Assembly (NCBI RefSeq): GCF_900155475.1
Contig: NZ_FXAM01000001.1
Location: 3,358,881 to 3,422,880, forward strand
Direction: 5' to 3'
Source: Methylomagnum ishizawai
Lineage (GTDB): Bacteria > Pseudomonadota > Gammaproteobacteria > Methylococcales > Methylococcaceae
Length of the DNA: 64,000 nt
Shown in pieces: positions 1-49,453 of the stretch. The stretch's first letter is position 1, and each line of letters opens with the position of its first letter. Both the position numbers and the translations under genes were made by a program. The notes beneath the pieces are model-generated. The model was given only the letters and a program-made list of their open reading frames with translations. It did not search any database and was not told the DNA's origin.

Positions 1-7
1 GAGTGTT

Positions 8-141
8 GACGGGCGGTGCGTGGGCACGCTTCGGCGTGGCCGGTTTCCAAGTAGCCGGTTTTCCACCCCACGCACCGTCCGTCGCCCATTCTCCGTGGAA
101 AGAGAACGCGACGGTCCAAACCTTCTTACTTGGAGTCCGTC
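8..141 (+). promoter_or_regulatory. Structured leader RNA, copy 1, upstream of antirepressor-like gene
   Basis: The leader folds in an orderly way. P1 is a 17-bp stem of 8-24 with 67-83 containing one G.U pair. P2 is 25-29 with 34-38, closed by a UUCG tetraloop. P3 is 40-44 with 54-58. P4 is 79-85 with 108-114, continued by 89-93 with 102-106. P1 and P4 share 79-83. GACGG at 110-114 can instead pair with CCGTC at 137-141 beside the ATG at 142, and TCC at 115-117 with GGA at 132-134 of the Shine-Dalgarno sequence, which suggests a translational switch. The same architecture recurs at 962-1094 with compensatory changes. The fold is my inference from pairing; no known RNA family was recognised. 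Confidence 0.6.
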
Positions 142-684
142 ATGGCTAATCACGCCCAAATTGCGCCCTTTTCCTGGGGCGATGTCTCGCTTTCCCAGGC
201 CGTTCACGTCAACGGCATTCCCCATGCCACCAAAATCGCCATTGGGGAATGGCTTGAATATTCCTTCCCGCGCGAAAGCATCAACAAGATTCTGGAGCGC
301 AATCCCTACCTCGAAGCCTTCTCAGTCGAAGTCAACTTGACTTCGACTGACGGCAAAAACTACGACACCACGGTCTACCATCCCATGGGCTTTTTGCTCA
401 TCGTGATGGAATCCGGCCAGCCCAAGGCCCAGGCCGCGAAGGTCGCCATCGCCGCCTTCGTCTGGCATTTCTGCGGCGGGCAGGACATCGCGGCCAAGGA
501 CGCCATCCAGCTCCGCCAAGTCCTGCTCAAGACCCTCGCTGCCCTGCAATCCTGCCACTGCGCTTTTTCCCAGCGCATCCTGCTGGATCAAGTGCGCGAT
601 GTGTGCCGCCAACTCCGCCAGCCCATCCCCGACCTGTCCCTGATCGGCAAAGACCCTAAACAAACCGCGTTGGAGGGCTTCTGA
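142..684 (+). CDS. Phage antirepressor-like protein (variant N-terminal domain)
   Basis: This 180-residue protein starts at ATG 142, preceded by GGAG at 132-135; the first residues (MANHAQ) match the second paralog at 1095. The N-terminal 115 residues resemble no domain I can name firmly and differ from the BRO-N domain of the paralog. The last 45 residues, from CHCAFSQ to the end, closely match the paralog and finish with the identical string SLIGKDPKQTALEGF. By position and shared tail I infer a phage-type antirepressor or DNA-binding regulator. The reading frame ends 2 bp before the next start codon, so the two genes are probably co-translated. Confidence 0.5.
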   Translation: MANHAQIAPFSWGDVSLSQAVHVNGIPHATKIAIGEWLEYSFPRESINKILERNPYLEAFSVEVNLTSTDGKNYDTTVYHPMGFLLIVMESGQPKAQAAKVAIAAFVWHFCGGQDIAAKDAIQLRQVLLKTLAALQSCHCAFSQRILLDQVRDVCRQLRQPIPDLSLIGKDPKQTALEGF

Positions 685-686
685 CA
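638..686 (+). repeat. Direct repeat of the shared 3' gene end (second copy at 1609-1657)
   Basis: About 49 bp encoding the common C-terminus plus the stop and the first base of the next start codon are almost identical to 1609-1657, with two substitutions that I can see. The central parts of the two genes are unrelated. Near-identical flanks around unrelated cores fit a recent duplication followed by replacement of the middle segment. Confidence 0.8.
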
Positions 687-1102
687 TGGGTAGCCCGATA
701 GACCAACTGTTTCCCCAGGAAACCCTCGCCGCGCTCCGCAACGCGCCGATGCCGCCCTACAAAGGCAGGGAACCCAGCGAGATCGAGCTTAAGCGCATCG
801 AACAGGCCACGGGCTTGACGCTGCCTTCCATCCGGGCCTATGCTTTCCGCGCCGTCACATTGCTGGCGGTCGGGCCTGCAAACCCGCTGGATCTAGGCGC
901 ACAGCCCCCTTATTTCGCGTCTTGGGCATTTTTTACGCCCAAGTCACGCCTATCGAGTGCTGACGGGCGGTGCGTGGGAAGCCGAAAGGCTTGCCGTGAT
1001 CCTAGACCACGGATTTGCAGCCCACGTACCGTTCCGTCGCCCATCTCCCTGCAAAGAGACGCGACGGTCCTAAACCAAAGTCTAGGAGTCCGTCATGGCT
1101 AA
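686..1102 (+). CDS. Hypothetical protein, probably truncated by the downstream duplication
   Basis: ATG 686 follows the preceding stop by one base. The first 55 residues (MGSPIDQLF..., with a helical stretch near TGLTLPSIRAY) look like genuine protein. From about residue 75 onward the frame runs through an inverted repeat and then the whole second leader element. Its last 45 residues are therefore a translation of the leader structure and are unlikely to be native. I infer that a longer or different gene was cut when the second leader/antirepressor unit arrived. No family recognised. Confidence 0.35.
   Translation: MGSPIDQLFPQETLAALRNAPMPPYKGREPSEIELKRIEQATGLTLPSIRAYAFRAVTLLAVGPANPLDLGAQPPYFASWAFFTPKSRLSSADGRCVGSRKACRDPRPRICSPRTVPSPISLQRDATVLNQSLGVRHG
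921..943. repeat. 7-bp inverted repeat before the second leader
   Basis: CTTGGGC at 921-927 pairs with GCCCAAG at 937-943. The loop is T-rich on the plus strand. Because the T run is inside the loop and not after the stem, it is not a standard intrinsic terminator. It sits just ahead of the second leader and could mark a boundary of the duplicated unit. Confidence 0.4.
962..1094 (+). promoter_or_regulatory. Structured leader RNA, copy 2, upstream of BRO-type antirepressor
   Basis: This is the second copy of the element at 8-141. P1 is 962-978 with 1021-1038, with a wobble pair and a one-base bulge. P2 is 979-983 with 988-992 and carries a GAAA loop instead of UUCG. P3 is 994-998 with 1008-1012. 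P4 is 1034-1040 with 1061-1067, continued by 1044-1047 with 1056-1059. Against copy 1, three P2 pairs and one P3 pair change on both strands, and one P4 pair is lost from both strands together. GACGGTCC at 1063-1070 can pair with the Shine-Dalgarno/CCGTC segment at 1085-1094. Confidence 0.6.
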
Positions 1103-1655
1103 TCATGCCCAAGGCGCGTCCGCGCCCGTCCCGTCCGTATTTTCCTTCCAAAGCCTGTTCAATGTCCGCGTCCTGTCCGATGCCCAGGGCATGGAATGGT
1201 TCGTCCTGGCCGATGTCTGCAAGGCCGTCGATTATTCCAATCCATCCGATGCACAAAAACTGATCGATGTCGATGACCTAGAGAAATTCGAGGTCATCGA
1301 CAGCCTTAGCCGGGTCCAAACCGCTTGGTGCTGCACCGAACCGGGGCTTTACCAGTTCCTCGGTTCCTCCCAGGTCGAGAAGGCCAAGCCCTTCCGCAAG
1401 TGGGTATTTGGCGAAGTCCTGCCCGCGATCCGCCGCCAAGGCTTCTACGGCCAGCCGGTTTCCATCCAAGACCAAACCCGCCTTGAAACCCAACTCGGTC
1501 GTTACCTGGACCGGCTGGAAAGCTGCAACTGCGCTTTTTCCAAGAAGCTGACCTTGGACCGGATCGGCGTCATCTGCCGCCAGCTCCGCCAACCGCTGCC
1601 CGATATTTCCCTGATCGGCAAAGACCCCAAGCAAACCGCGTTGGAGGGCTTCTGA
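1095..1655 (+). CDS. BRO-N domain antirepressor protein
   Basis: This 186-residue protein has a BRO-N (prophage antirepressor) domain at about residues 15-117, recognisable by WFVLADVCKAV, the ligand-like EPGLYQF segment and the FRKWVFGEVLPAIRRQG helix. Proteins of this family are phage or plasmid regulators that bind DNA or repressor proteins. The C-terminal 45 residues are shared with the gene at 142. The start is chosen at ATG 1095 because AGGAG lies at 1084-1088. It is the clearest evidence that 1-3024 belongs to a phage or integrative element. Confidence 0.85.
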   Translation: MANHAQGASAPVPSVFSFQSLFNVRVLSDAQGMEWFVLADVCKAVDYSNPSDAQKLIDVDDLEKFEVIDSLSRVQTAWCCTEPGLYQFLGSSQVEKAKPFRKWVFGEVLPAIRRQGFYGQPVSIQDQTRLETQLGRYLDRLESCNCAFSKKLTLDRIGVICRQLRQPLPDISLIGKDPKQTALEGF

Positions 1656-1656
1656 C

Positions 1657-1875
1657 ATGGCCGCGCAAATCATCCCCTTCCCCAAACCCGGCCCCCGCCG
1701 CACGGCCTCCATGCGTGTCGAGGAAATCAAGCGCCTGCTGGCCCCCTTCTTCGTCGGGATGCCCAAGAAGGACCGGCTTGAATTCATCGCCGAAATCTAC
1801 GTTGACGCGCAGGAAGAAGCCGACTCATGGCGTTTCGCGGAGGGTCCGCCCGCGTTGACTGTTCAGGATCATTGA
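1657..1875 (+). CDS. Small hypothetical protein of phage-like cluster
   Basis: This 72-residue basic/acidic protein begins one base after the stop of the BRO gene, in the same arrangement as 684/686 in the first unit. It opens with a proline-rich stretch (IIPFPKPGPRR) followed by an amphipathic helical region (VEEIKRLLAPFF, then an EFIAEIYVDAQEEAD segment). No domain is recognised. Its tight coupling to the antirepressor suggests a regulatory or accessory role, which is only an inference. Confidence 0.5.
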   Translation: MAAQIIPFPKPGPRRTASMRVEEIKRLLAPFFVGMPKKDRLEFIAEIYVDAQEEADSWRFAEGPPALTVQDH

Positions 1876-3182: not shown

Positions 3183-4136
3183 CTAACGCTTCGTGAGCTT
3201 GGGACCGATATAGACGATGTAGAGCGGTTCTTCGGCCCGTATTGGCCAAGAGAAATGCACACGTAACTGCGGCGTCTGGACTTTGCCATGCCAGGGGCAA
3301 AATAAATTCTCGCCAGGGTTCCCAGGATGCTTAAATGTCATTTTCCGCCGGTATTCAGAATCATTTTTCTCGGAATCTGAAGCATCCGAAAACAGCGCTT
3401 CACCTGTAAAAAAATTCTGATAGATTTCATGTCCTTCTTGAGTACGTTGCCCCTGCTCATCGAAACAAGATTTGAGACGGTTCAAAGTATCGAGGATAAA
3501 AGATAACCGCTCAGCCGCGTTGGGATTGAAAGGATGGCCTATCAATGGCGCGAATGCATCTTCTGAAAAGTCGAGATCAGGGCAGCGAAGCTTGACGGAT
3601 TTTCCTAATTCGGGCCATGAAACCAATCGTGTCTGAACATTTTTAAGAGCCGCCTCTACAGTAGATGGCTCCCAAAAATTCCCAAGCTCGATGGTTGTGT
3701 TTGCCTCCCCTGTTATCCAAGAAACCGATATTGGCGAAAACTGCCAGTCGGAAGGAGAGAAACTCACCAACTCCCGCCCGATACCATTCAGGCAGCACCA
3801 AGCGGCCTCTCCTATCGCGGTATCCGTCACGATTTCATTTTTAGACTCGAACCAATCATCCGGCCCGTGGCTACGGGAATCCTCCCAAAACGGTCCATAC
3901 TGGGTCAGCCATGGCATCAAAGAACGTCGCTCGCTGACGGTGAGCGCTTGGACCGCTTGAAACAATAATATTCCCGGCATCGCCATATTCTGAAGTAAAT
4001 TCCGGTGGCAATACAACTCCCGGCCAGAACGCCGGGCTATTTCCCGGATTACCATTACACGCCGGATAGCTTCCCTAAACACCGAATTATCAGAGTATTG
4101 TCCATGGAGCGAGAGGTCATTGACCATCAGGTCCAT
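3183..4136 (-). CDS. Unknown protein, third gene of DUF262/ATPase cassette
   Basis: This 317-residue soluble protein has no domain I can name. The C-terminal 50 residues are distinctive: a KHPGNPGE turn, CPWHGK, LRVHFSWP and YIVYIGPKL. That alternation of strands loosely resembles small RelE-like folds, but this is speculative. The start ATG directly abuts the TAA of the ATPase gene (4137-4139), with a G-rich ribosome-binding site in the ATPase 3' end. It is therefore the third member of one transcription unit. Its base composition is lower in GC than the flanking core genes. Its position after an ATPase suggests an effector or an accessory to it. Confidence 0.6.
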   Translation of the reverse strand: MDLMVNDLSLHGQYSDNSVFREAIRRVMVIREIARRSGRELYCHRNLLQNMAMPGILLFQAVQALTVSERRSLMPWLTQYGPFWEDSRSHGPDDWFESKNEIVTDTAIGEAAWCCLNGIGRELVSFSPSDWQFSPISVSWITGEANTTIELGNFWEPSTVEAALKNVQTRLVSWPELGKSVKLRCPDLDFSEDAFAPLIGHPFNPNAAERLSFILDTLNRLKSCFDEQGQRTQEGHEIYQNFFTGEALFSDASDSEKNDSEYRRKMTFKHPGNPGENLFCPWHGKVQTPQLRVHFSWPIRAEEPLYIVYIGPKLTKR

Positions 4137-5273
4137 TTATTCCCCCCACCCGGCGAAGTAATTCATATCCTTGTCGAACTGGTCGAAGAAACCCTCGGGC
4201 CAAACATCGATATTACCCGAAGCGTCTAGGATTGGGTTATCTACCTGCGCCATCTCGGAAGTGCGCGGCCTGAAAAAATATAGTGCCGTCTGTTCCGGGG
4301 CGAGTCTCCCGGTTTTCACTGCCCGGCGGATGCCATTCAAGATGTGGTCGCTGTGGGTTTCGATAATCACCTGCACACCGGCCCGTGCCACGTCCGCCAA
4401 GAACTGCCCCATCCGCCCTTGCCCAGCGGGATGCAAATGGACCTCGGGGTTTTCAATCAACAGAAGATCGCCTTTACCCGCCGAGAGCGCGGCAACCACG
4501 ATGGGCAGCACTTGGGTAAGCCCAAAACCGACGTGAACCGGGCGATGGAAATCGGTATCGTCGGAAGTCCGCAACCCGAGCGTCACCGCGTTGGCCTGCG
4601 GCACCGGCTGCAAACTTAGGGAACAATTTGGAAAGAATGTCCACATCCTGGCCTCAACTTGATGTAGGCGGGTATTGGGTCTTCCGGCCAGGACAAGTTC
4701 AGGTAACACCGGCTCGTCCCGCCCCCAGTGCAGCACACTAGCCGTCCGTTCGCCGGTCGGACCTACCACGGTCGCGCTTTGAGGGTCTTCGAGGGCATAG
4801 ACTTGGCGCGGCCCCACCCGCTCGGCGGTGAGATAGCTCAGCCTGTACAAACGTCCTGGTAGCGAACACCACCCTTCCATTTTAAGGGGAAGCAAATGGC
4901 GCAGCCACTTTGGCTGGTCAAACGTCTCGTGCCCCTTCATCACGCGCTCCACCGCCATCGACATTTCGGAGCGTTCCCCGACAAAGGTCCAGCGGTAATC
5001 CCGCTCGTCGTCGCTCAAGCCGATTTCCAGGCTGCGCCGCCCATGGATTTGGTCAACCACATCCAAGACCGTGCCGAGTTGGATGGCCGAACCGTTCAGC
5101 ATCAGTCGGGTGGACCATTCGTGTTCGCGCATGGTTTGGTGTAGTAGCACCAGCGCTTGCAACACCGAAGATTTGCCCGAGGAATTGGCCCCGGACAGCA
5201 CGGTCAACTCGGTCAATGGCAGGCTGAGCCGCTCGAAGCATTTGAAATGTTGGAGATCAATCTGGGTAAGCAC
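4137..5273 (-). CDS. AAA/SMC-type ATPase with DUF3696 C-terminus
   Basis: This 378-residue ABC/SMC-like ATPase has FKCFERLSL at the N-terminus and a Walker A (GANSSGKSS, about residues 28-36). A signature-like VGFGLTQVLP lies near 248-257, Walker B LLLIENPEVHLHP near 270-282 and ETHSDH near 305-310. The end (GNIDVWPEGFFDQ) is typical of DUF3696 proteins, relatives of the OLD and PtuA nuclease-associated ATPases. There is no Toprim nuclease domain. I chose GTG 5273 because GAGGAGGT lies 5 nt upstream, inside the last codons of the DUF262 gene. The resulting 17-bp overlap makes coupled translation likely. It probably acts as the sensor/motor of a defence module. Confidence 0.85.
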   Translation of the reverse strand: MLTQIDLQHFKCFERLSLPLTELTVLSGANSSGKSSVLQALVLLHQTMREHEWSTRLMLNGSAIQLGTVLDVVDQIHGRRSLEIGLSDDERDYRWTFVGERSEMSMAVERVMKGHETFDQPKWLRHLLPLKMEGWCSLPGRLYRLSYLTAERVGPRQVYALEDPQSATVVGPTGERTASVLHWGRDEPVLPELVLAGRPNTRLHQVEARMWTFFPNCSLSLQPVPQANAVTLGLRTSDDTDFHRPVHVGFGLTQVLPIVVAALSAGKGDLLLIENPEVHLHPAGQGRMGQFLADVARAGVQVIIETHSDHILNGIRRAVKTGRLAPEQTALYFFRPRTSEMAQVDNPILDASGNIDVWPEGFFDQFDKDMNYFAGWGE

Positions 5274-6354
5274 CGAATACCTCCTCGAACATTTTTTTTG
5301 CCGCATAAAAGCGGAATTTCACTTGCTTAACATCGCTAGTCGCATAATTAATAGATGCGATAAAATCCCCATCTTTCATTCGCGCAAAAAATACGTTTCT
5401 TAACTCCTCCGCATGGGCTTCTACCATACTTTCATTATATTTTGACAATCCAATAGACATCACATCCCAAAGGGAAGCATTGATTACTTTACGGGAGTGT
5501 TGATCTTGCTCGCATCTCCTAAACGCATGTCGATCAAAAACCTTCAAGTTATTGGAAAGGCCATTGCGAAAATCCGCAGAAAGCTTATTTAGCTCCGATT
5601 TTTCCAAGCCATTCATTTTTTTCAATGCCTCTCCTAAAAACTCATCCATATCTCCCCGATAGCTTTCCAAACCCAGCAATCGAAACGCGCAAAAGCGATT
5701 CACAAACTCGCGGTCCCGCATTGTCGATGGGGTCAGGCTCTTACCGGTAGCTTGTACGAACAAATCGGTTTCCGCCTCTTCTCTCAAAAAAGTCGTTGCC
5801 GCCCCCATGTAAATACAATTCCTCATTTGCTGACGGGTTAATGGCACCCCACCATTAACCCGCTCGAATATATCCAAACGCGCTCTTTCCGGCACCTTGG
5901 CATCGATCACATAAAGAATTAAATTACAATCCTCAATCCGATTTTGCATTTTTGGAGATAGGTTTTCAAATTTCTTCTTATTTAATTCAGCTTGTTTTTT
6001 TAGCCTTAACTTTAATTCGTTTTTAACAAACCGATTAAACGTGGAGAGCCTTTGCAAGCCATCCACCACAATCATCCGGCCTTCCTCGTCCTCGGCCAGA
6101 TAGAACACAGGCAAAGGAATCCGCATCAACACGGATTCGATCAATTTGCTCTGTTTATCTTCCGACCAAATGAAATCCCGCTGAAAATCAGGATTCATGA
6201 CGAAAGAACCCTTTTCTATTCTCCGCAAAACATCGTGGATCGTGCGGGTTTCGGTTCGAATCCATACCGTATCAATCGGATAATCGCCCCAGCCGGAATC
6301 TTCATCCCGGTCGAGACCTTCGATTTCCTCTTCAACTGACTTTTCTTGCTGCAT
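5257..6354 (-). CDS. DUF262 (ParB/Srx-like) protein, first gene of cassette
   Basis: This 365-residue protein has the DUF262 hallmarks FQRDFIW (about residues 57-63), RIPLPVFYLAE (78-88) and DGLQRLSTF (98-106), the last corresponding to the DGQQR motif. DUF262 occurs in GmrS/GmrD, SspE and other antiphage nucleases, where it hydrolyses nucleotides or nicks DNA. The usual DUF1524 HNH domain is absent, so any nuclease activity must come from this domain or a partner. The start is set at ATG 6354 because AGAGGA precedes it by 7 nt; a GTG at 6387 is an alternative. The gene is clearly lower in GC than neighbouring core genes, a sign of transfer. Confidence 0.85.
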   Translation of the reverse strand: MQQEKSVEEEIEGLDRDEDSGWGDYPIDTVWIRTETRTIHDVLRRIEKGSFVMNPDFQRDFIWSEDKQSKLIESVLMRIPLPVFYLAEDEEGRMIVVDGLQRLSTFNRFVKNELKLRLKKQAELNKKKFENLSPKMQNRIEDCNLILYVIDAKVPERARLDIFERVNGGVPLTRQQMRNCIYMGAATTFLREEAETDLFVQATGKSLTPSTMRDREFVNRFCAFRLLGLESYRGDMDEFLGEALKKMNGLEKSELNKLSADFRNGLSNNLKVFDRHAFRRCEQDQHSRKVINASLWDVMSIGLSKYNESMVEAHAEELRNVFFARMKDGDFIASINYATSDVKQVKFRFYAAKKMFEEVFGAYPD

Positions 6355-6429
6355 TTCACATTCCTCTATGCAAATCGGGCCACACACAAGGTCCGATTCT
6401 GTTCAATACAACAGGCGCGAACCGCCGCC

Positions 6430-8760
6430 CTACAGTATTTTCTTGAACCGCTCCAACAACACCGTTTGCGCCTCCACCCCCGGCGAATCTTCGACCGGCT
6501 CCACCCGCTGGTACGTCCCCTCCGGTCCCAAGCGCCAAGCCTGGGAATCGTCCCTGAGATAAAGCTCCAGATCGTCGCGGATGCGGTCGGCCAGCTTCTT
6601 GTTCTCGATGGGGAAACACGCCTCCACCCGGCGGAACATATTGCGCGGCAGGAAATCGGCGCTGGCGGCGTATAACTCGGGGGCACCGCCGTTCTCGAAG
6701 CTATAGATGCGGCTGTGTTCCAGGAAGCGCCCGATCAGGGAACGGACCTCGATCTTGTCCGACACGCCCGCAACCCCAGGCCGCAAACAGCAAATCCCGC
6801 GCACGATCAGCTTGATCTCCACCCCGGCCATCGAGGCCCGGTACAAGGCCTGGATCAATTGCGGCTCGGCCACGGCGTTGACCTTGACCACGATCCGGGC
6901 CGGTCTTCCGGCCTGGGCGTGTTCGGCCTCGCGCTGGATTTTCTTCAACAACGATTGGTGCAGGGTGAAGGGCGATTGCAGCAACTTGTTGAGCTTGCCC
7001 ATCTTGCCGAGGCTGGTGAGTTGCACGAACACCTTGCGCACGTCCTCGCCCAAGGCCTGGTCCGCCGTCAGCAGGCAATAATCGGTATAGGTCCGCGCAG
7101 TGCGGGGATGGTAGTTGCCGGTGGACAAATGGGTGTAATAGCGCAGCCGTTTCCCCTCCCGGCGCAGGATGGAAATCAGCTTGCCGTGGGTCTTGTAGCC
7201 GACGATGCCGTACACCACCTGCGCCCCGGCCTCCTGCAAGCGGGTGGCGAGCGAGATATTGGCCTTCTCGTCGAACCGCGCCCGGAGTTCCACCACCACG
7301 GTGACTTCCTTGCCCGCCCGCGCCGCCTTCATCAAGGCTTCGACGAAGGGCGAATTGGGACCGGTGCGGTAGAGGGTCTGGCGGATGGCAACCACCTGCG
7401 GATCGTCGGCGGCCTGCCGCAGCAATTCGATAATGGGCGCGAACGATTCATAAGGATGCTGCAACAGGATGTCCTGCTTGCGGATGGCCTCGAACAAATC
7501 GTGCCCGGCGACCAACTGCGGCGGACAACCGGCGGTGAACGCCAGATATTTGAGATCGGGCCGGTCGATCAAATCGTAGACATCGCGCACCCGGCTGAGG
7601 TTGACCAAGCCATCGACCTTGTATAGCCGGTCGGCGCTCAGGCCGAACTGGGTCAGCAGGTAATCGATCAGGCCGTCCGGGCAGTTGTCGGCCACTTCGA
7701 TACGCACCTCGTCGCCATAGTTGCGGCTGCTCAATTCGCCTTCCAAGGCCCGCAGCAAATCGTCGATTTCCTCCTCGTCCAGATACATCTCGCTGTTGCG
7801 GGTGACGCGGAATTGATAGCAGCCGCGCACCTTCATCCCGTTGAGGAGTTCGTCCACGAAGTTGTGGATGATGGACGATAGGAACACGAAGTCGTGGGGA
7901 CCGCTGTCGGTTTCGCCCGGCGGCAATTGGATGATGCGCGGCAGGGAGCGCGGCGCTTGCAGGATCGCCAGCTCGATATCGCGGCCGAAGGCGTCCTTGC
8001 CCGATAGCGGGATGATGAAATTCAGGCTCTTGTTGAGGATGCGCGGGAAAGGATGGGCCGGGTCCAGGCCGATGGGGCTGAGGATCGGCAGCAATTCCTC
8101 CTCGAAATATTGCTTGAGCCAGGCCTGTTGCGACTCGTTCCAGCCGCCGCGGCGGATGAAGCGGATGTTTTGCTCGGCCAGCAGGGGCAGGATGACTTGG
8201 TTCAACACCCGGTATTGTTCGGCCACCAGTTCGTGGGCGCCGGCGCTGATGGCGGCGAGGGCTTCCTGCGGCGTGAGGTGGTCGGGTCCGGTGCGGACCG
8301 CGCCGAGTTCGGCCCGTTGGATCAGGCCCGCCGTGCGGACCTCGAAGAATTCGTCCAGGTTGGAGCAGGAGATACACAAGAAATTGAGCCGTTCCAACAG
8401 GGGCACGCGGTCGTCTTTGGCTTGTTCCAGCACGCGGCGGTTGAATTCCATCAGGCTCAATTCCTGGTTGATATACCAGCGGCCATCGGTCAGGTCCACC
8501 ATTTCGCCCTCCCCGGCCCCTTCTTCCCCGATAGCCCTACGGTCGTGGCGGAGGCCGGAGGATTCGGGATTGTCTTCCATATTGCCGATCATGTACTTGG
8601 CGGCGCGGATCATGCGCGTGGCCTTGGTTTTGCTGAGTCCGGGGATTTTGAGCAATTGCTCGACGTGGGCGGTGGCGAGTTCCTCGACCGAGAAGATGCC
8701 ATGCTCCGCGAGGCTGGCGCGGGTGGACTTACTGATGCCTTTGACGTTGTTGATAATCAA
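6430..8760 (-). CDS. ppk1: Polyphosphate kinase PPK1 with N-terminal helix-hairpin-helix domain
   Basis: This 776-residue enzyme reversibly transfers the ATP gamma-phosphate to polyphosphate. The PPK1 core starts near residue 93 (RWYINQELSLMEFNRRV), with CSNLDEFFEVR soon after. The phospho-histidine region is YYTHLSTGNYHPRTAR, and a YKTHGKL segment precedes it. Ahead of the core, residues 4-57 form two helix-hairpin-helix units (NNVKGISKSTRASL and KIPGLSKTKATRMI), which normally bind DNA or RNA and are not part of standard PPK1 proteins of about 690 residues. A charged linker (60-90) joins them. The frame is continuous, so this looks like a real fusion. Confidence 0.93.
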   Translation of the reverse strand: MIINNVKGISKSTRASLAEHGIFSVEELATAHVEQLLKIPGLSKTKATRMIRAAKYMIGNMEDNPESSGLRHDRRAIGEEGAGEGEMVDLTDGRWYINQELSLMEFNRRVLEQAKDDRVPLLERLNFLCISCSNLDEFFEVRTAGLIQRAELGAVRTGPDHLTPQEALAAISAGAHELVAEQYRVLNQVILPLLAEQNIRFIRRGGWNESQQAWLKQYFEEELLPILSPIGLDPAHPFPRILNKSLNFIIPLSGKDAFGRDIELAILQAPRSLPRIIQLPPGETDSGPHDFVFLSSIIHNFVDELLNGMKVRGCYQFRVTRNSEMYLDEEEIDDLLRALEGELSSRNYGDEVRIEVADNCPDGLIDYLLTQFGLSADRLYKVDGLVNLSRVRDVYDLIDRPDLKYLAFTAGCPPQLVAGHDLFEAIRKQDILLQHPYESFAPIIELLRQAADDPQVVAIRQTLYRTGPNSPFVEALMKAARAGKEVTVVVELRARFDEKANISLATRLQEAGAQVVYGIVGYKTHGKLISILRREGKRLRYYTHLSTGNYHPRTARTYTDYCLLTADQALGEDVRKVFVQLTSLGKMGKLNKLLQSPFTLHQSLLKKIQREAEHAQAGRPARIVVKVNAVAEPQLIQALYRASMAGVEIKLIVRGICCLRPGVAGVSDKIEVRSLIGRFLEHSRIYSFENGGAPELYAASADFLPRNMFRRVEACFPIENKKLADRIRDDLELYLRDDSQAWRLGPEGTYQRVEPVEDSPGVEAQTVLLERFKKIL

Positions 8761-33900: not shown

Positions 33901-35496
33901 ATGTCATCACTCGCATACGACGTTCTGGTCATAGGCAGCGGTGCTGCCGGCCTCAGTTTGGCTTTGCGGCTGGCCGATCATGCGCGGGTCGCCGTGCTGT
34001 CCAAGACCGCCCTGACCGAATCCAACACCCTCTACGCCCAGGGCGGCATCTCGGCGGTGCTGGACGAGGGCGACTCCATCGAATCCCATATCCAGGATAC
34101 CTTGGTCGCCGGTGCCGGGCTGTGCGACCCCGAAACCGTGCGCTTGGTGGTTTCGCATGGCAAGGAATGCATCGACTGGCTGGTCGAACGCGGTGTACCG
34201 TTCACCGAGGTCGAGTCGGAAAATGGCGGGCACCATCTCCATCTGACCCGCGAAGGCGGCCACACCCACCGCCGGGTGGTCCACGCCGCCGACGCCACCG
34301 GCCTCGCGGTGGAAACCTCGCTCGAACAACATACCCGCGCCCACCCCGGCATCGCGGTGTTCGAGTATCACAATGTCATCGATCTCATCACCGCCAAGAA
34401 GCTGGGCGGACGCGAGCCGCGGGTGTTGGGGGCCTATGTGCTGGACAGCCAGGCGCAAAAGGTCAAGACCTTCCGCGCCCGCCATGTGGTGCTGGCTTCA
34501 GGCGGGGCCAGCAAGGTCTACCTCTACACCAGCAATCCCGATATCGCGACCGGTGATGGCATCGCCATCGCCTGGCGGGCCGGGGCGCGGGTGGCCAATA
34601 TGGAATTCATCCAGTTCCACCCGACCTGTCTATTCCATCCCCATGCCCGTTCCTTCCTGATTTCGGAGGCGGTACGGGGCGAAGGCGGACGCTTGCTATT
34701 GGCCGACGGTTCGCCCTTCATGCCGCGGTTCGATCCCCGCGGCGAATTGGCCCCGCGCGATGTGGTGGCCCGCGCCATCGACCACGAGATGAAGCGCTTG
34801 GGGGTCGATTGCGTATTCTTGGATGTTTCCCACCAGCCCGCCGAGTTCATCAAAAGCCATTTCCCCACCATTTATGCCCGTTGCCTGGAACTGGGCATCG
34901 ATATCACCCGCCAGCCGATCCCGGTGGTGCCGGCGGCGCACTATACCTGCGGCGGCGTCCTCACCGATCATGGGGCCCGCACCGATATTCCGGGGCTGTA
35001 CGCCGTGGGCGAGGTGGCTTGCACAGGACTCCATGGCGCGAACCGGATGGCGAGCAATTCCCTCTTGGAATGTTTGGTGTTCGCCAAGCAGGCGGCGGAG
35101 GATATCCTGCAGGGTTTACAGGATCAACCCAACCCGCCGGAATTGCCGGAATGGGATGAATCGCAAGTAACCGACTCCGACGAGGAAGTGGTGGTTTCCC
35201 ATAACTGGGACGAAATCCGCCGGTTCATGTGGGACTATGTCGGTATCGTCCGCACCGATAAGCGCCTGCAACGGGCTTTGCGCCGGGTCGAGTTATTGAA
35301 GCAGGAAATCGCCGAGTATTACGGCAATTTCCGCGTGACCAGCGATTTATTGGAGTTGCGCAACCTCGTGATCGTGGCTGAATTGATTATCCGCTCGGCC
35401 TTGTTGCGCAAGGAAAGCCGGGGTTTGCATTTCACCTTGGATTATCCCGGCTTGGAGGAGCGGAAACCGCCGGGGAATACCATCCTGGTGCCCTGA
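33901..35496 (+). CDS. nadB: L-aspartate oxidase
   Basis: This 531-residue FAD enzyme makes iminoaspartate in de novo NAD synthesis. The N-terminal Rossmann motif is [17 protein letters not shown] (about 9-25). [13 protein letters not shown], the active-site [12 protein letters not shown], and the C-terminal [24 protein letters not shown] are family signatures. NadA is not in the window. The gene is divergent from rpoE. Confidence 0.97.

Positions 35497-48040: not shown

Positions 48041-49453
<1,413 letters not shown>

Follow-up and report, generated by a model that had tools for sequence, protein, structure and literature searches.

C4 antisense RNAs have been known since 1990, and processing by RNase P to an RNA of about 77 nt is a trait of the family. 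In phage P1, the annotation places c4 at 48343-48419, followed by a2 at 48423-48429, b2 at 48452-48459 and icd at 48470. The C4 RNA of P1 and P7 is described as processed, with RNase P acting at its 5' end, and as acting on target mRNAs; the RNase P site of P1/P7 and of Acinetobacter is described with GG (PMC5320573, partial text). Two other systems are relevant here: the Salmonella RNA IsrK, which was studied in prophage Gifsy-1, and sRNA-Xcc1, which is located upstream of symE in Xanthomonas integrons (PMC12444791, partial text).

The window analyzed here, a stretch of 64,000 nucleotides from Methylomagnum ishizawai, contains two structured leaders at an offset of 954, for which the original prediction knew of no described RNA family and suggested a covariance-model search. 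That search against Rfam found the C4 RNA (RF01695) in both leaders, starting at window positions 2 and 956. The paired arrangement is confirmed, and each leader is a C4 antisense RNA, a kind already known from phages; the supposedly undescribed layout is that of RF01695, with RF03163-like elements upstream. A new riboswitch or a new RNA family is ruled out by these matches. The E-values over the 64 kb window (3e-11 for copy 1, 6e-06 for copy 2) indicate that the fold is not due to chance, in agreement with the proposed selection for RNA structure. The family threshold is 45 bits, which copy 2 exceeds by just 2.3 bits. As RNAs, the two copies are unremarkable within the C4 family. The features of the two cassettes are:

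2-89, plus strand: C4 antisense RNA, copy 1 (RF01695, 68.7 bits)
46-53, plus strand: loop b' of copy 1, TCCAAGTA, perfect complement of 127-134, TACTTGGA
59-66, plus strand: junction a' of copy 1, TTTTCCAC, forming seven Watson-Crick pairs and one G-U with 95-102
79-85, plus strand: c' of copy 1, CCGTCGC, the 3' strand of C4 stem P1, complementary also to 108-114
95-102, plus strand: target a2 of copy 1, pairing with a'
108-114, plus strand: segment c of copy 1, GCGACGG, which covaries with c'; hairpin T1 spans 79-114 with a2 in its apical loop
127-134, plus strand: target b2 of copy 1, overlapping the Shine-Dalgarno GGAG at 132-135
142-684, plus strand: gene under copy 1, 180 aa, ATG at 142
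815-844, plus strand: promoter-like site of copy 2, TTGACG-18-TATGCT, from sequence alone
838-890, plus strand: c4-a1b1-like element of copy 2 (RF03163, 25.0 bits, below the threshold of 46.7)
873-886, plus strand: a1 of copy 2, 12 of 14 columns pairing with C4
892-897, plus strand: b1 of copy 2, just outside the RF03163 match
956-1044, plus strand: C4 antisense RNA, copy 2 (RF01695, 47.3 bits)
1000-1007, plus strand: loop b' of copy 2, TCCTAGAC, perfect complement of 1080-1087, GTCTAGGA
1014-1020, plus strand: a' of copy 2, TTTGCAG, perfect complement of 1049-1055
1034-1040, plus strand: c' of copy 2, pairing with segment c
1049-1055, plus strand: target a2 of copy 2, pairing with a'
1061-1067, plus strand: segment c of copy 2; the most stable predicted fold here is T1 (P 0.97)
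1080-1087, plus strand: target b2 of copy 2, overlapping the Shine-Dalgarno
1095-1655, plus strand: gene under copy 2, Bro-N antirepressor, 186 aa (Pfam Bro-N, 1.4e-17; phrog_130 anti-repressor, 1.2e-32)

We read each leader as a phage-derived C4 antisense cassette, complete in itself, that silences its own antirepressor gene, and put the probability of this reading at about 0.9. Within it, the family membership, the complementarities with their covariation, the gene families and the array were all directly observed. The base pairs drawn in the original prediction hold against the leader sequences. In P2, copy 1 has CACGC/GCGUG closed by a UUCG loop and copy 2 has AAGCC/GGCUU closed by GAAA, with three of five pairs exchanged on both strands (C-G to A-U, C-G to G-C, G-C to C-G), and P3 carries a single full exchange, G-C to U-A. 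The helix named P4 lies outside C4, in the target half of the leader. A further compensatory pattern connects the two halves of the leader and is not internal to the hairpins: between copies 1 and 2, a', b' and their own targets are altered in concert. The complementarity of a' and b' to a and b, with b over the ribosome-binding site, is that expected of a C4 RNA.

In the host genome (5.48 Mb, 8 contigs), 13 C4 matches were found, all over threshold. One of them starts 983 bases upstream of the start of copy 1 (G000:C1:3357899). Copies 1 and 2 are two of three tandem cassettes, copy 1 being the middle one; the third, like the a'/a and b'/b pairs, escaped the earlier description, which was made without searches on a window that cuts through the array. 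Such a triple array is unusual, and of the 48 genomes in the set, 4 have C4 RNAs spaced by less than 2 kb. Elsewhere, four C4 RNAs with their own leaders lie 354-598 bases apart, start to start, at G319:C9 1700-3092 (L172), an array of another make. A blastn search with window positions 1-1700 against 50,697 phage and 72,556 plasmid records returned nothing at E up to 1e-5. Beside the array, the minus strand at 3183-6387 encodes a GmrSD_N protein along with a DUF3696-containing AAA ATPase, perhaps a defence operon.

The antirepressor expected downstream of a C4 RNA was recognized under copy 2 by its Bro-N domain and under copy 1 via a weak PHROG match and the predicted fold only. Pfam gave nothing for the copy 1 protein, and its PHROG match is phrog_245 anti-repressor (E 0.0022). 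Its AlphaFold model (pLDDT 82.9) matched 22 entries of a viral library at E up to 0.001, many of them named repressor-domain or Bro-N, with modest TM-scores (query-normalized at most 0.48); against the PDB there was nothing at E up to 0.001, the best being 0.30. The copy 1 gene product is probably a Bro-N-like antirepressor. The first codons at 142-180 and 1095-1135, like those of many related loci, frequently contain a GC hairpin (GGGCG-AAAT-CCGCCC type) whose sequence varies (by eye). We also considered a coding element as the origin of the base pairs. The 138-aa frame at 686-1102 crosses C4 and has no Pfam or PHROG match, and this explanation was set aside. This frame and an equivalent one at 8614-9030 in L037 each begin where an antirepressor gene ends, cross the promoter, C4 and the leader, and close shortly past the next start codon; their outline resembles that of orf45 of Gifsy-1.

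To quantify the pairing across the family, we combined 82 matches from 61 related genomes, 53 of 65 matches from 369 genomes of the class (12 repeated loci already in the set) and phage P1, giving 136 loci. Three were dropped for having no start codon by the rule used, leaving 133. The score was the mean best ungapped pairing, compared between cognate and permuted partners in 5000 permutations. The order of each cassette was the same as in phage P1: C4, site a, site b at the Shine-Dalgarno, start codon. Cognate pairing was never reached by permutation (0/5000 each): 18.45 against 14.56 permuted for a (highest permutation 15.36), 21.83 against 14.82 for b (highest 15.78) and 20.93 against 16.93 for c (highest 17.80), a third pairing described below. 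With partners exchanged inside genomes only (19 genomes, 96 loci), the result was again 0/5000 for each of a, b and c. Thinning an earlier collection of 80 loci at 85% identity left a non-redundant 65, and these behaved likewise. Scores below 15 were given by 9 loci for a, 14 for b and 6 for c, with genomes G332 and G424 accounting for 6, 8 and 4 of these, respectively. In the loci of these two genomes (L148-L153, L155-L164), target a or b of the C4 RNA is weak, and four G424 loci score below 15 for b and not for c. The upstream sites behaved similarly in 132 loci: a1 scored 26.03 against 18.47 permuted and b1 23.54 against 21.14 (0/2000 each). The score of a1 exceeded that of a2 in 120 of 132 loci, in windows of 80 and 35 nt, the wider of which somewhat favors a1.

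The third covarying pairing, c:c', joins the 3' strand of C4 to leader segment c. Its hairpin T1 excludes the outer part of the C4 closing stem P1. In 132 loci, the seven c:c' columns were 89.9% canonical, compared with 80.6% for permuted leaders (highest of 100: 83.0%), and 123 cells were doubly changed, compared with 74.8 (highest 91); the register of c was picked per locus, and likewise in the permuted controls. Since permutation does not account for relatedness, loci of the same genome were also set against each other. For C4 positions -11 to -5 at which bases differ within a genome, 516 of 602 c':c cells were canonical with their own c and 258 of 602 with swapped partners. At 186 positions both partners differed and the pair was canonical in either locus; at 43 the partner was retained. 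The span of T1 is nearly constant (median 35 nt), with site a between its arms. Forcing T1 cost a median of 2.3 kcal/mol relative to C4 and leader folded separately; in 36 of 133 loci the forced hairpin was the more stable. The case for a switch thus rests on covariation rather than energy. For copy 1, T1 was at -69.0 against -67.3 for the separate folds, the unconstrained minimum being a C4 fold at -69.6 (P(T1) 0.26). For copy 2, T1 was itself the minimum (-66.4), and for the upstream array member the values were -63.8 and -64.6. It is possible that c:c' represents a choice between C4 precursor and messenger. The pairing is not mentioned in the literature searched, comprising search listings and the available parts of PMC2864571, PMC8198154, PMC12197685 and PMC5320573.

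Segment c might alternatively be a third contact in trans, made by the 3' strand of C4 on the target messenger, and not part of a switch. The sequence evidence is equal for cis and trans, and we regard this as a minority reading that deserves some weight. The order of the targets, a-c-b, is nevertheless at odds with b'-a'-c' in C4, as a:a' and c:c' together would cross, and the nearly constant span with a in the loop also argues for the cis hairpin. Part of the proposed dual pairing of GACGGTCC (110-117) holds: it has two partners, one of which is the covarying 3' strand of C4, but the Shine-Dalgarno partner is weak. The latter pairing, T2, between the 3' part of the GACGGTCC region and the Shine-Dalgarno side, reached a score of 12 or more in 99 of 133 loci, and its observed mean was reached by 0/5000 permutations over all loci. 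It is weak because 99/5000 permutations within genomes reached the observed mean, and T2 was rejected as an equally conserved switch.

Could the cassettes be decayed prophage remnants that have inherited the structure and lost the function? The copy 2 score is close to threshold, and a methyltransferase-like start before the first array member runs into cassette sequence. On the other hand, all three array genes are open, and the cognate pairs are intact in three of three members despite their sequence differences. We therefore consider decay improbable. At L037 about 7600-7900, the methyltransferase-like start (MELMVDLFAGGGGASSGIE) is joined to cassette sequence as if by recombination. Least probable of all, and only barely credible, is a cis-acting leader switch (riboswitch or thermosensor) with no separate antisense RNA, which could point to the masking of the Shine-Dalgarno by T2 and to the predicted minimum of copy 2, a T1 fold with the start region paired, but which fails to predict the covariation of b' and a' with distant leader sites and a second, upstream site pair, and sits poorly with the processed P1/P7 RNA that acts on target mRNAs (PMC5320573, partial text).

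The self-contained antisense cassette would work as follows. Transcription from the promoter-like site, one of which precedes each array member (by eye), would read through the a1b1/isrK-like element into C4 and then the antirepressor gene. C4 would fold into P1-P2-P3 and be excised from the transcript, the 5' cut being ascribed to RNase P by analogy with P1/P7. In both window copies, stem P1 begins with GA and not GG, placing GA at the presumed cut site. The P3 loop b' would bind the Shine-Dalgarno region and the junction a' the site upstream of b; through this pairing, translation of the antirepressor would be blocked and the element kept silent. The suggested control of antirepressor translation at the Shine-Dalgarno is supported by analogy with P1, whereas the main element is an antisense RNA and not, as had been thought, the leader acting as a switch by itself. 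In an unprocessed transcript, the 3' strand of C4 may instead pair with segment c (T1), opening the outer part of stem P1, so that a single molecule would become either C4 precursor or messenger. Expression, processing and repression in the host are expected on these grounds, their core function being carried over from P1/P7.

Since a', b' and their targets have changed together, each of copies 1 and 2 would be expected to repress its own gene and hardly affect that of the other. We compared the longest Watson-Crick run in b'/b in a 13 x 13 matrix of the C4 RNAs and genes of the host. The cognate run was 7-9 in 12 of 13 pairs, and non-cognate runs were 3-6, with one exception: the C4 RNAs at 3357899 and 4097925 are interchangeable (run 7) and share one target. 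The locus at contig position C4:44397 had no b run above 4, probably owing to a wrong start codon by the rule used; a separate pairing scan gave CCTTCGTG/CATGAAGG for it. The a' sequences fall into groups common to two or three of the 13 loci. Nine distinct downstream proteins were scanned against Pfam (3 Bro-N, 2 Phage_pRha, 1 KilA-N, 1 AntA and 2 without family); two more cassettes encode copies of these, and two were outside the scan. About 12 antisense-target pairs in one genome, differing by a few loop bases, offer a resource for studying how specificity evolves, and such a natural set would be useful for building insulated regulators.

The upstream elements of the array fit c4-a1b1 (RF03163) in place and complementarity, with scores of 35.7, 37.0 and 25.0 bits (25.0 for copy 2) that are all below threshold. 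The isrK family (RF01394, threshold 50) scored 32.1 and 32.5 bits in the first two members, and copy 2 had no isrK match at E up to 0.01. Another cassette of the host genome passes the isrK threshold (55.1 bits); it is the one above threshold among seven isrK matches in this genome, and all seven end 13-22 nt before a C4. Of 27 new C4 loci of the class, 20 were sampled. An isrK match (E up to 0.01) lay no more than 60 nt upstream of C4 in 17 of them, exceeding the threshold in 3, and c4-a1b1 was matched in 12, exceeding its threshold in 4.

Because isrK lies next to C4 so often, we examined prophage Gifsy-1. There, orf45 covers a C4 scoring 69.0 bits, with isrK (79.3 bits) on one side and anrP on the other (L212 34131-34316, minus strand). 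With c4-a1b1 at 48.1 bits, all three families are above their thresholds; RAGATH-16 was discarded at 18.3 bits against 65.6. With +1 set at 34316, ten checked bases or codons agree with PMC4825925 (partial text). In this numbering, orf45 AUG 107 and 119 coincide with the C4 start, the published IsrK mutations G28 and G31 lie in a1 and C159 and C162 in a', and G114 and C175, paired in structure B of that paper, are partners in stem P1 of the predicted C4 fold. The basal expression of anrP was 4 in wild type, 93 in isrK-G28A, 218 in G31A, 484 in C162U and 926 in C159U, and the double mutants gave 224 and 327, which are 56 and 82 times wild type (PMC4825925, partial text, Table 1D). The doubles regain the isrK-orf45 helix and the wild-type gel conformation (same source). 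That they remain far above 4 despite the restored helix fits a C4 acting at two sites, one of which is restored: changes in a' would weaken repression at two sites and changes in a1 at one, and the doubles would restore pairing with a1 and not a2. A pure decoy role of a1b1 for IsrK is insufficient alone, as a decoy by itself would lower basal expression, and G28A and G31A raise it.

Two-site repression with titration in trans would account for these values, and other rows of the paper's data do not conform. Several results speak against C4 as the simple explanation: the C4 stem forms in structure B, which is the translationally active form, and activation needs orf45 translation and is lowered by stop and start-codon mutants (PMC4825925, partial text, Table 1C). 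Mutations at 119-121 raise basal expression to 11 and 16 only (PMC4825925, partial text); these positions are in stem P1, and the rise is smaller than loss of C4 should give, again against the simple reading. We infer that the link is likely and that C4 under orf45 amounts to a partial reinterpretation of the IsrK data, offering another account for part of the genetics of this published locus. The part of PMC4825925 that was searched contains no "c4 RNA", Citron, Schuster, phage P1, Rfam or RNase P, and in the available texts of a literature search for IsrK with "C4 antisense", a joint mention appeared only inside a table.

A comparable organization was seen around sRNA-Xcc1 (RF02221). Thirteen relatives of the copy 1 gene were compared (identity 33-61%). 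C4 lies directly before the relative in L195, L199 and L200, and sRNA-Xcc1 in L193 (Nitrosovibrio) and L198 (Magnetococcales); in L197, sRNA-Xcc1 precedes a further gene with a similar start. The remaining loci had neither a C4 nor an sRNA-Xcc1 match directly there. The sRNA-Xcc1 loci (L193, L197, L198, L213-L242) have C4-like sites both downstream, near the Shine-Dalgarno, and upstream. In 33 loci, comprising 30 of 43 matches (14 of the 30 below the family threshold) and 3 more, cognate pairing beat all 5000 permutations for downstream b, a and c; in 32 loci, cognate upstream a beat all 5000 and upstream b all but 5. Six downstream proteins were scanned: three SymE, one KilA-N (host genome) and two without family. 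In the host, an sRNA-Xcc1 match of 60.5 bits precedes the KilA-N gene (contig C4:14623-14711, L220), and contig C1 has two matches below threshold. No link between C4 and sRNA-Xcc1 was made in the available parts of the literature searched.

Taken further, C4, isrK/c4-a1b1 and sRNA-Xcc1 may be one widespread phage module, a tentative idea that we hold to be somewhat doubtful. In such a module, one promoter would give a terminated isrK-type RNA with a1b1 that titrates C4, then C4 and an a2b2 messenger; T1 would decide between C4 and messenger, the a'/b' codes would diversify quickly enough to provide about a dozen insulated channels in a single cell, and IsrK would activate anrP at least partly by sequestering the C4 under orf45. 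Beyond the known family, our analysis adds the third pairing, the specificity set and the links to IsrK and sRNA-Xcc1.

Compared with known systems, the cassettes share with the C4 of P1/P7 the fold, the layout, the a/b targets at the Shine-Dalgarno of the antirepressor operon and the upstream a1b1-like sites, and c:c' is present in P1 as well (CCTGCCACC/GGTAGCAGG, 8/9). They differ in having no icd between C4 and antirepressor, in the three tandem cassettes and in targets that differ per copy. The Group 1 sRNAs of Acinetobacter baumannii (PMC5320573, partial text) are likewise many C4-type RNAs per genome, 21 there and 13 here, with variable a'; their targets were left open there, whereas here 12 of 13 match b in their own leader. 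With IsrK-orf45-anrP, two of the three array members share an isrK-like element just upstream of C4 (below threshold), although the published account, in the available part of PMC4825925, invokes cis structures A and B, orf45 translation and IsrK in trans. Finally, sRNA-Xcc1 occupies the same place as C4 and follows the same a1b1/a2b2 logic, with a' and b' matching upstream and downstream sites, but its stem sequences differ, and the Rfam output places the two in no common clan.
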